DNA of 64,000 bases from Promethearchaeota archaeon. Its GTDB lineage: Archaea; Asgardarchaeota; Lokiarchaeia; Sigyniarchaeales; SOKP01. This document shows, piece by piece, positions 37,966 to 43,222 of the stretch (within the stretch, counting starts at the first letter, position 1; the number at the start of each line of letters is the position of its first letter). Made by a program: the position numbers and the translations under genes. The stretch lies in assembly GCA_016839765.1 (NCBI GenBank), contig JAEOTP010000016.1, positions 130,027-194,026 of the forward strand. Reading direction: 5' to 3'. The notes below the pieces were generated by a model. That model searched no databases, had not been told where the DNA came from, and saw nothing but the letters and a program-made list of their open reading frames with translations.

Positions 37966-39675
37966 TTATTCCTTTACCGTCTCTAAAAGTTCCTCAATTT
38001 CAGACTGAATTTCGTCTGGTTTCTTCGCTTCTTCTCCTTGAATGGCTAAGGCGCGCTCTAAGCGCTCCCTATGAAGTGTATTCATGGCGCAGAATGGAAC
38101 CTCTAAGACTTTTGATGAGTCCTCTGGATCAATCACGCCGTAATGGACAAGACAGCGGCAAACTCTATCTAAGTCAAAATTGTAAGAATCTTGAAAATGC
38201 ATCGAGCTAATTAAAAGATTTTTCTCGTGAAAGAATTTCCCAGCAGATTGAAGATTGGGAAAAGCAATCAGGCGAGAGAATGCTATTAGCGTTTTACTTG
38301 TTAACAATTTCGTAGGATTACGTACGTATCTCATAGCCCCGGCAAAATAGTAAGCTTTCATCATCTGACGATATCCTAAGCTCGTTATATCATCGACAAA
38401 CTTTCCTATCGTACTTGCGATACTCCCAAACTCCTCTAAATTGATACCCTTGAGGAGTCCAGTAGGTTTAGGAACTTCTTGTTTCTGGGCCATATCATAT
38501 ACTTTATTTGACCACCGGATGAGCCCTTCCGCGTCAAAGTAGTTTTCAATTGGTTCCCACTCATCCTTGGCATTGATAACGCAAATTGTCGCAAATCCGC
38601 AATCTGAGTGGCTGGTTGGGCTCCACTCAGGCACATCGTCGAACCATGCTAATAATCGTGTCATTTTAGCGGTGGTTGCTAACGGATAGAATTTGGTAAT
38701 TGCATTATTTGTGTGTTTATTTATTGCTATTTTCAAATCTGAGGTTGTATATCGTATATCCATCAACTCTTCAAAGCTTATGCGACCACATAGAGATACA
38801 GGTTGATAAATAATTCCAGAAATAACATCATTATTGTCTTTAGCATAGTCCATAATCTTTCCAACTTCTTGATCATTTACTCCTTTAGCTATTACTGGGA
38901 CTAACATTACACCATAAAATCCTATTTTTCTGGCATTCTCAATCACTCTTTGTTTTAAAGGCCAAAGATTTACGCCTCTTATCTTTTTCCATACTTCAGG
39001 GTTATCAGTTGCATCGAATTGCAAATATATAGCATCCATTCCAGCATCTTTGCATTGTTTCATAAATTCAATTGACTTGGCAAATCTAACTCCATTGGTG
39101 GTAACCATAACTTCAATAAAGCCTAATTCTTTACCTTTTCGAATGATCTCAGGGAGATCATCTCTAATTGTAGGTTCTCCACCAGAAATTTGTAATAAAA
39201 CGGCTGCTGTGGGTTTCATTGATCTAAAATGCTCCATGATCTGGACAATTTGATCATACGTTGGTTGGACAACGTATCCCTTTGCACTAGCATTAGCAAA
39301 ACAAATCGGGCACGCTAGATTACACCTATTAGTGATATCAATTAAACAAATATTAGGGGCGCTTTTATGGTTTTCACAAATTCCACAATCATAAGGGCAA
39401 CCTTCATTACATTCCTTTATTCCCGAAGAGACATACTCAGGTTTTGTAGTATGATCTACTGTAGAACCAATCTCATCCGTAAATGTTTGCTGCCATTTAT
39501 ATTCTTCTGGATCTATACTAAGTTTATCTTTAAAATCTCCGTGTTCTTCACAATTTTTCCTCATCATTACCCAATTTGTATTATCATCGACGTAGATTTC
39601 GGCTGCTATTGGCTGTAAGCATTCTGGACATATACTTGTTGTGCGTCTTATAATTTCTTCAGTCATAAGTATCAT
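37966..39675 (-). CDS. tes: Tetraether lipid synthase (radical SAM)
   Basis: 569 residues. N-terminal zinc-knuckle-like CPEC (16-19) and C42/H45, then CPYDCGICENHKS (93-104), TNRCNLACPICFANAS with the radical SAM cluster C118-x3-C122-x2-C125, QISGGEPTIRDDLPEI, and further cysteines in VPFCAMNTLHRERLERAL. This arrangement is that of Tes, which joins two archaeol-type lipids tail to tail to make GDGT or macrocyclic membrane lipids. Start may be ATG 39675 or 39666. The last third is visibly less AT-rich than its neighbours. Two inverted repeats lie upstream of its promoter. Confidence 0.87.
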   Translation of the reverse strand: MILMTEEIIRRTTSICPECLQPIAAEIYVDDNTNWVMMRKNCEEHGDFKDKLSIDPEEYKWQQTFTDEIGSTVDHTTKPEYVSSGIKECNEGCPYDCGICENHKSAPNICLIDITNRCNLACPICFANASAKGYVVQPTYDQIVQIMEHFRSMKPTAAVLLQISGGEPTIRDDLPEIIRKGKELGFIEVMVTTNGVRFAKSIEFMKQCKDAGMDAIYLQFDATDNPEVWKKIRGVNLWPLKQRVIENARKIGFYGVMLVPVIAKGVNDQEVGKIMDYAKDNNDVISGIIYQPVSLCGRISFEELMDIRYTTSDLKIAINKHTNNAITKFYPLATTAKMTRLLAWFDDVPEWSPTSHSDCGFATICVINAKDEWEPIENYFDAEGLIRWSNKVYDMAQKQEVPKPTGLLKGINLEEFGSIASTIGKFVDDITSLGYRQMMKAYYFAGAMRYVRNPTKLLTSKTLIAFSRLIAFPNLQSAGKFFHEKNLLISSMHFQDSYNFDLDRVCRCLVHYGVIDPEDSSKVLEVPFCAMNTLHRERLERALAIQGEEAKKPDEIQSEIEELLETVKE

Positions 39676-39962: not shown

Positions 39963-39977
39963 AAATTAAATAAAAAA
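39963..39977 (+). promoter_or_regulatory. TATA box for the candidate RNA
   Basis: AAATTAAATAAAAAA at 39963-39977 is centred about 28-30 bases before the G-rich start of the structured RNA at 40000, the standard archaeal TATA-to-start distance. Confidence 0.45.
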
Positions 39978-39999
39978 GTTTTATTTCTTGATTTTTTAA

Positions 40000-40125
40000 G
40001 GGGAGACTCCTGCCACCAAGACCTAATAATAAGGTCAGAAACAAAATAGGGGGAGGAGGGCGAAATCAGAGTGTGTTTTTACACACTACCAAAAGACAAA
40101 AATCCAGGGTAGTGACAGGAGTCAT
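40000..40125 (+). ncRNA. Candidate structured non-coding RNA, class unknown
   Basis: In the middle of a 722-base gene-free, T-rich stretch lies a block of clearly higher GC. Its ends pair: GACTCCTG (40005-40012) with CAGGAGTC (40116-40123), extended by CAC/GTG past one mismatch. Inside are GACCT/AGGTC (40020-40036, 7-base loop), AGTGTGT-TTTT-ACACACT (40070-40087) and a G-rich purine tract (40049-40060). CACTACC (40084-40090) can instead pair with GGTAGTG (40108-40114), excluding the second hairpin and part of the outer stem. A TATA box precedes and T-rich sequence follows (40131-40170). It does not match RNase P, SRP, tRNA or box C/D motifs that I know. No open frame fits. Confidence 0.6.
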
Positions 40126-40397
40126 GTTATTAAATCTTTATTTCTCTCCCTATTTTGATTTTAATTTTATTAATAATACTTTTTAAATTTTTATCTTATA
40201 ATGGAAATAAATAATGATTCAAAATGGAAATTAAAAATCTTTATTATGAAATAAATAGATTTGGAGATATTTAAAATAATTGTCGAATTTTGAAAATTTT
40301 TATTGACAGAATAGTGAAAATTTGCTGGTATTAATTTATGAAAATACTTAAGTCTTAGTAAACTAATAAAATGATTTAATATTTTAAAGATATAACT

Positions 40398-40775
40398 ATG
40401 AGAGAAACTGTAGGACAAGAAGAGCCGCCATTAAAATATGATGTATTTACAATAATATTCTTTGCGATTGGCTTTATAGCTTCATGGTTTAATATGATAT
40501 TAATTTTAGAAGCACCCAGATATATTGAGGTTATAGCATATTTATCAATAATTTTTACTACAATTATTCCAGGTGTTATTATTGCTTTAAAAAAGAGATA
40601 TTGGGGTTATGGTTATTTATTTGGGTTTTCTGTTGCGGGGATCCCTTTTATGATTATAATTGACTTGTTCATTGGGGGTTATACATGTATTACTACTTTA
40701 TTTATCTTTATAATATTATGGTTAATATTTTGGAAAACATGGCGTTCTCTTAGCTCTATAAAGGTGGATGCGTAA
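40398..40775 (+). CDS. Small four-helix membrane protein
   Basis: 125 residues with hydrophobic segments near 17-36, 42-62, 70-90 and 92-112, a short acidic N-terminus (RETVGQEEPPLKYD) and a basic C-terminus. No motif recognised. It is preceded by about 270 bases of AT-rich sequence after the candidate RNA and ends 52 bases before a convergent gene. Confidence 0.55.
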   Translation: MRETVGQEEPPLKYDVFTIIFFAIGFIASWFNMILILEAPRYIEVIAYLSIIFTTIIPGVIIALKKRYWGYGYLFGFSVAGIPFMIIIDLFIGGYTCITTLFIFIILWLIFWKTWRSLSSIKVDA

Positions 40776-42064: not shown

Positions 42065-43222
42065 TTATTCTTCTTTCTTTTTCTCCTCGATTTTTTTGAT
42101 TTCCCCTTCGATCTTTTCACTTATTCCCTTTATATCAGGCTTAATTTCCATTCGCTTTAAATCTTCTTCTCGTTGTTTGTCTCTTCTAAAAGCTTTTTCA
42201 CTAATTATCTTTTCAATTGCTTCTCCTGCTTTTTCTAAATCTGGCTTTAATTCCAATCTTTTCATATCTTCCTCACGTTGTTTATCAATTCTAAAAGCTT
42301 TCTCACTTATCGTTTTTTCAATGGCTTGACCAACTTTTTCCAAATCTGGTTTAATTTTTTTACGTTCTTCTGCCGCCTCACGTTGCTTTTCTAATCTAAA
42401 TGCTTTTTCACTCACTGATTGGCTTATTACCTCACTTGCTTTTTCTACATCTGGTTTCAATTCCATTCTTTTTTGATCTATCTCTCTTTGTTTATCTATT
42501 CTAAATGCTTTTTCTGCTACGGTTTTACTTATTGCCTCTCCTGTTTTTCTAAAGTCTGGTTTCAGTTCCAATCTTTTCATATCTTCCTCACGTTGTTTAT
42601 CAATTCTAAAAGCTTTCTCACTTATCGTTTTTTCGATGGCTTGTCCAGCTTTCTCTAGATCAGGTTTTATTTTAAATCGTTGGGAGTCGCTTTCCTTCTT
42701 TTTCTCAATTAAAAAAGCTTTTTCATCGATGGATTTACTAATTGCTTCGCTTGTTTTTTCTAAATCTGGTTTAATCTTAAGCCTTTGAGCATCACTTTCT
42801 CTCTTTTTTTCTATCATGAATACTTTTTGGTCAACAGATTTACTTATAACCTCTCCAGTACCTTTTATATCCGGTTTTAGTTCTATTCTTTGTAAATCTT
42901 CTTCACGCTGCTTCTCTCGTAAAAACGCTTTTTCACCAATTGTTTTTTCAATAGCACTTCCTTTTTGTTCTATATCAGGTTTTATTTTCATTCTTTCTAG
43001 ATCTTTTTCTCGTTGTTTCTCTCGCAGGAAGCTTTTTTCTGAAATCAAATTGGAAATTAGATCTTTGCTTTCTTCAAATGCCTTTTTTCTTTGTTCTTCA
43101 GTTAGTTTAAGATATTGTTCTCTTTCTTCTTTTTCTTTTTTATAAAGTTCATTAACAATTTTTTTTTGTTTTTCAATTTCTTCTGGAGTTAAATGATTTT
43201 CATTTTCTTCCAATTTCCTCAC
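42065..43222 (-). CDS. Coiled-coil protein of nine 35-residue repeats
   Basis: 385 residues, extremely charged, no signal peptide or membrane segment. After a 60-residue helical leader come nine tandem repeats of exactly 35 residues (61-375) with the core SEKAFRIDKQREEDMKRLEL, then KPD, and a tail of about 12 including AIEKTI. 35 is five heptads, so a long continuous coiled coil with a break at each KPD is likely. Start is GTG 43222 or TTG 43213; the latter has AGTGAGG four bases before it. No homologue known to me; a scaffold or filament role is a guess. Longin-like gene is convergent next door. Confidence 0.7.
   Translation of the reverse strand: MRKLEENENHLTPEEIEKQKKIVNELYKKEKEEREQYLKLTEEQRKKAFEESKDLISNLISEKSFLREKQREKDLERMKIKPDIEQKGSAIEKTIGEKAFLREKQREEDLQRIELKPDIKGTGEVISKSVDQKVFMIEKKRESDAQRLKIKPDLEKTSEAISKSIDEKAFLIEKKKESDSQRFKIKPDLEKAGQAIEKTISEKAFRIDKQREEDMKRLELKPDFRKTGEAISKTVAEKAFRIDKQREIDQKRMELKPDVEKASEVISQSVSEKAFRLEKQREAAEERKKIKPDLEKVGQAIEKTISEKAFRIDKQREEDMKRLELKPDLEKAGEAIEKIISEKAFRRDKQREEDLKRMEIKPDIKGISEKIEGEIKKIEEKKKEE
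42098..43042 (-). repeat. Nine 105-bp coding tandem repeats
   Basis: The 945 bases encode nine units of 35 codons with no insertion or deletion. Most units differ at many positions, but units 5 and 8 (exactly 315 bases apart, around 42556 and 42241) are almost identical over about 85 bases, which suggests recent conversion or duplication within the array. Confidence 0.85.

Follow-up and report, generated by a model that had tools for sequence, protein, structure and literature searches.

A candidate multicopy RNA family with a nearly invariant U-rich motif in Lokiarchaeota-type Asgard archaea

The window analysed here is a stretch of 64,000 nucleotides from a Promethearchaeota archaeon (GenBank assembly GCA_016839765.1, contig JAEOTP010000016.1). 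In a gene-free part of it lies a GC-richer block (40000-40126), flanked on the left by the minus-strand radical-SAM gene 37966-39675 (PF04055 and PF23545) and on the right by the plus-strand gene 40398-40775, which encodes a small predicted membrane protein. An earlier note on this DNA had described the block as structured, closed by a terminal helix and containing two hairpins and a purine tract. This description is borne out by the conservation of the block and by its plus-strand fold, which has an MFE of -34.3 kcal/mol, matched by 1 of 200 shuffles (z -2.84). The minus-strand fold reaches -40.8 kcal/mol (z -5.63), and none of 200 shuffles is as good. With its leader and promoter the whole feature extends to about 40275, beyond the block as first described, and the candidate RNA gene would run from about 40250 down to about 39975 on what is very probably its coding strand, the minus strand. 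Read in that direction, the parts follow each other as promoter, leader, P1, the invariant CCUGGAUUUUUGUCUUUUGG, P3, pyrimidine tract, P2, P1' and a U-rich tail (Table 1). Further along the window, the minus-strand frame 42065-43222 encodes a 385-aa protein with imperfect repeats (EKAFRxxKQREedlkRmelKPD) that is kept beside the RNA element across the genus; its sole Pfam match is a dubious Entericidin.

Table 1. Predicted parts of the minus-strand RNA and its promoter, in window coordinates
Feature	Position	Strand	Remark
TATA-type promoter box TTTAAATA (predicted)	40268..40275	-	aligned in ortholog set
Leader segment L1 AAGAUAAAAAUUU	40185..40197	-	13-bp complementarity, with G.U, to the invariant motif; tentative
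Leader segment L2 CAAAAUAGGG	40148..40157	-	10 bp complementary to the pyrimidine tract
P1, 5' strand	40110..40123	-	14 bp with 40005-40018; all P1 pairs covary
Invariant single-stranded motif CCUGGAUUUUUGUCUUUUGG (includes GAUUUUUG)	40089..40108	-	at or near 100% column identity (101 copies)
P3 hairpin	40070..40087	-	7 pairs, all changed on both sides
Pyrimidine tract ..UUUCGCCCUCCUCCCCCUAUUUUG	40042..40069	-	semi-conserved; purine tract on plus
P2 hairpin GACCU/AGGUC	40020..40036	-	pair types CG/GC/UA/AU vary among copies
P1, 3' strand (P1')	40005..40018	-	pairs with 40110-40123
3' tail with U-run, candidate transcript end	39972..40004	-	U6 at 39972-39977

Evidence for an RNA comes from covariation. 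Compensating base changes in homologous stems had been named in the earlier note as the test of its proposal, and in a plus-oriented alignment of 103 model matches (A4) they occur at all 26 modelled pairs; the covariation score is 0.414 against 0.140 ± 0.005 after shuffling and at most 0.077 when the partners are slid. In the minus-strand alignment (A6) 25 of 25 pairs covary, with a score of 0.450 against 0.171 for shuffled and at most 0.101 for slid controls. As both alignments were fitted to a model, the absolute pair counts lean towards the model structure; the slid and shuffled controls are free of this bias, as are unaligned copies from other genera. In one such genus the P1 helix is retained with unrelated letters (GTGGTCCTTATCC/GGATAAGGACCAT and GATAAGAGTTCT/AGAACTCTTATT, plus-strand letters). 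The P3 cells are paired in 92.8% (plus model) and 95.0% (minus model) of cases, while for P2 a register shift by one between two sub-types brings the counted pairing down to about 75%. The block thus almost certainly encodes a conserved structured RNA, with a predicted three-way-junction core (P1, P3, P2) that presents the invariant U-rich single strand. A further hairpin is present in some of the copies (L055/L056, L112, L163, L218). The pyrimidine tract is shorter or replaced in some copies, such as L025 and L062; L062, the second copy in the window's own genome, and L063 have AU-rich sequence in its place and retain P1, P2, P3 and the motif.

The earlier note had read the RNA from the plus strand, and here the comparison of copies leads to the opposite strand. 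Where bases pair in the plus-oriented alignment, A.C mismatches outnumber G.U pairs in P1 (52 vs 21), P3 (17 vs 6) and P2 (28 vs 11). After clustering at 85% identity the counts are 50 vs 22 (67 clusters, one-sided p 6e-4), and at 75% identity 27 vs 14 (41 clusters, p 0.03). Since A.C reads as G.U on the opposite strand, this excess favours the minus strand. Of 41 clusters, 33 have the lower fold energy on minus (Wilcoxon p 5e-5). The terminal helix was described as 8 plus 3 bp; the helix itself is real, and the length is what changes, because on minus it has 14 continuous pairs including two G.U, where the plus strand reads 8+3 with C.A mismatches. A TATA box had been placed at the right distance on the plus strand, but 103 upstream flanks show no positional signal there and the boxes lie on the other side: in 96 copies, related ones among them, minus-orientation TTTAAATA/TTTATATA boxes number 79 in the 3' flanks and 26 in the 5' flanks (plus-strand sense), against 29 and 29 for the plus orientation. 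Many of the minus-orientation boxes are accompanied by a BRE-like AAAAG; the window has a weak form of the BRE-like purine run of other lineages (AAAAGATTTAAATA). Runs of U and A have the polarity of a minus-strand transcript, with 17 U5+ vs 123 A5+ runs in the leaders and 82 U5+ vs 51 A5+ runs in the roughly 60 nt 3' of P1'. In the ortholog set of the window's site (A) conservation is limited to the flank on the promoter side (0.61/0.60/0.54, against 0.33/0.37 on the other side and 0.32-0.39 for the shuffled baseline). This contrast between the flanks is clear in set A; sets C and D show it less strongly, and set B does not show it. Covariance models of plus and minus orientation score the copies about equally and carry no strand information. 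Taken together, we regard it as highly likely that the RNA is read from the minus strand.

The RNA is present in many copies and its distribution is narrow. A 331-base query finds copies in nearly all genomes of the same genus, usually several per genome, and these relatives align at about 70-90% identity. The 16-mer AAAAGACAAAAATCCA tags the element almost perfectly and is found in 24 of 39 genomes, while its reversed control has no match. A longer pattern matches 56 of 227 genomes of the phylum (genomes throughout being mostly metagenome bins), all of them in one family. With a covariance model based on many copies, the RNA is found in 62 of 65 genomes of this family, at 1-11 copies each, including the genus g10, which the pattern had missed. 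The highest copy numbers are in G137 (11 model matches) and G010 (7, plus more motif copies). Across 162 other Asgard genomes there was no credible model match; three borderline ones (E 0.002-0.006) are treated as noise, since this is about the number expected at E<=0.01. In a GTDB-wide pattern scan the matches listed belong mostly to Lokiarchaeota or Lokiarchaeia, and those of the bacterial ones that were scored with the model reach at most about 23 bits or give no match, except in one Patescibacteria bin. This bin (AMOR_Bin_1762) has two good RNA copies on contig L116 (661-796 and 3641-3766), and on contig L136 (around 4460) the 21-base motif is present without change and the structure scores a weak 20 bits; among the genes of L136 are those for an N6/N4 DNA methylase and for a DnaQ-like exonuclease. 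Both contigs are probably misbinned Lokiarchaeal or mobile-element contigs. A viral origin was considered and rejected: there were 10 IMG/VR pattern matches, and three representatives scored at most 17 bits or gave no match.

That the RNA lies outside the known classes, as had been proposed, agrees with our searches. Rfam 15 at gathering threshold, with its families of tRNA, SRP, RNase P, riboswitches, snoRNA, sRNA and others, gave no match in the window and none in six divergent loci, and a relaxed Rfam search of 501 bases returned only 11-bit noise. The consensus has no RUGAUGA/CUGA pair of C/D guides and no ACA tail of H/ACA guides, and we found no description of this RNA family in the open-licence literature. 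Judged by these comparisons, the RNA family is previously unlisted and confined to one family of Lokiarchaeota-type Asgard archaea. The novelty is that of the RNA family; its mechanism may be of a known type. Orphan structured RNAs from comparative genomics (PMC2864571) were likewise recognised by covariation in intergenic regions, as stand-alone genes whose function was left open. The Lokiarchaeal RNA differs from them in being multicopy, limited to one Asgard family and without an Rfam match.

The most conserved part of the RNA is the single strand between P1 and P3. The motif CCUGGAUUUUUGUCUUUUGG is at or near 100% identity in each column among 101 copies, although selection contributes to this figure, many loci having been collected via the motif itself. 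It is, however, invariant or nearly so also in 54 genus copies that were collected by BLAST, and the genus g10, found by the covariance model, gives independent support. Column identity of 97% or more is confined essentially to the U-rich motif. Since this single strand is invariant while the stems on either side covary, we argue for a fixed partner. Within it, the U-rich site GAUUUUUGU is invariant and predicted to be single-stranded, and GAUUUUUG between the hairpins has the form of a U-rich Sm-type site. In archaeal SmAPs the pocket that binds uridine is conserved (PMC4500138). Sm-like genes (PF01423) are present in all 87 genomes scanned, with 1-5 per genome, and they are no more numerous in the family that harbors the RNA (f1) than in other families. 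Binding of an Sm ring at GAUUUUUG is a hypothesis that builds on a short resemblance. The final base of GAUUUUUGU differs from the purine that ends the canonical eukaryotic Sm consensus, so that the Lokiarchaeal site, with U in place of the last purine, is not the full PuAU4-6GPu of snRNAs. An Sm ring needs about 9 nt, and the invariant stretch of about 20 nt is longer than that.

Fold, strand, multiple copies, promoter-side flank and independence from neighbours come out of the comparison of copies; scaffold and targeting are what we infer beyond it. Our preferred reading, to which we give a probability of roughly 0.4, is that of a stand-alone minus-strand RNA that would combine a scaffold for a SmAP/Lsm ring with a locus-specific leader. 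The RNA gene would be transcribed from its own archaeal promoter on the minus strand, and the core would be a protein-binding scaffold, most likely for a SmAP/Lsm ring that sits on GAUUUUUG, flanked by P1 and P3. Leaders are alike among orthologs and different between paralogs, and the leader of each copy would direct it to locus-specific targets in trans, in the manner of Hfq-dependent small RNAs. Both the U-rich and the pyrimidine segment would be masked by pairing with the leader until the partner binds. With Hfq- or SmAP-bound small RNAs the Lokiarchaeal RNA shares a U-rich single strand by stable hairpins, a variable 5' region on a constant scaffold, an own (here predicted) promoter and several loci per genome. 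It differs from them by its core, a conserved three-way junction in which all paralogs share an invariant motif of about 20 nt, and its protein binding is putative. In eukaryotic Sm-class snRNAs a single-stranded (U)GGAUUUUUG likewise lies between stem-loops; unlike these, the Lokiarchaeal RNA has neither an Rfam match nor a splicing context, and its likeness to them is one of form. An Asgard family of Sm-ring-bound RNAs, in which paralogs would join a constant scaffold with an Sm-type site to locus-specific 5' ends, is in our estimate unlikely. If true, the relatives of the archaeal ancestor of eukaryotes would have a prokaryotic counterpart of the snRNP layout, and a Sm-like ring as partner would bear on the pre-eukaryotic origin of Sm RNPs.

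Alternatively, the stand-alone minus-strand RNA might have a partner other than an Sm protein, which we hold to be almost as probable. It would then belong to a lineage-specific RNP or be a regulatory RNA, with a protein or another RNA contacting the invariant segment. The length of this segment beyond the need of an Sm site fits such a partner, as does the limitation of the RNA to one family although SmAPs are universal. Nothing speaks directly against it, and it is the reading that would be left should Sm binding fail. For pairing with rRNA, the motif was compared with the 16S/23S rRNA of the relative G010 (the window's own assembly being without rRNA genes), and its complementarity is no better than that of shuffled motifs. 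The nearly invariant U-rich stretch presumably contacts something, and it offers a clear bait with which RNPs could be purified from Lokiarchaeota-type archaea, in which RNA-based regulation is little explored.

An action in cis seems quite unlikely to us. The element could be a riboswitch or attenuator in the leader of the radical-SAM gene, with the leader/core pairing as the switch: this gene begins 325 nt downstream on the same strand in the window and stays beside the element in several genera, and the leader pairs compete with P1. A cis leader would be expected always upstream of and co-directional with one class of gene; instead, the neighbouring genes, as called from simple open reading frames, are of unrelated families and on either strand, and the next gene in the direction of the RNA is co-directional in 60 of 97 copies and faces it in 37. 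Even in orthologs of the window's site (L018, L026) an opposite-strand gene separates the RNA from the radical-SAM gene. As the neighbours vary, a stand-alone trans-acting RNA is likeliest. We consider it very unlikely that the element is a mobile selfish repeat of the MITE or transposon-end type, its hairpins being terminal inverted repeats. The 1-11 dispersed copies per genome and their differing flanks would suit such an element, but orthologous sites in different species and genera have kept their copies, covariation with several pair types is seen in the internal hairpins as well as in the terminal stems, the promoter-like flank is on one side only, and no recurrent transposase is found among the recurrent neighbours. 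The plus-strand RNA with a two-state CACTACC/GGTAGTG switch, as first proposed, is hardly credible, for although its fold also beats the shuffles, the A.C excess over G.U, the fold energies and the polarity of promoter and U-runs speak for the other strand, and the switch helix attains 7 bp in only 4 of 116 copies.

The idea of two competing folds nevertheless survives in another form: the switch that had been noted is not conserved, while pairings between the leader and the core of the minus-strand RNA are in part, although the tests for them are modest in strength. For L1 and the invariant motif the combined p is 2.4e-4 over 36 leaders, against 0.9996 for the other flank; we keep this pairing as tentative because p is 0.06 when the test is made stricter by anchoring it on the TATA box. 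Variants of L1 across lineages include AAGAUAAAAAUUU, AAGGCAAAAAUU and AAGGUAGAAAUUU. L2 pairs with the pyrimidine tract of the window over 10 bp (p 0.015), and this pairing, with compensating variants of the AAAAUAGGG-like segment, is found in a subset of lineages, reaching p<0.05 in 8 of 37 (combined p 3e-4; other flank p 0.24). In a 186-nt fold of the window's RNA the L2 pairing displaces P1. A regulated or masked state via leader pairing is plausible. There is also a divergent sub-family (L110, L114, L118, L133, L137, L141, L161, L184) with a longer P1 and the tract AGGGAGAAGUAAAGAAGAUUUC (plus). In several of its copies a TATA-type box lies about 45-52 nt from the core, which makes the leader much shorter.
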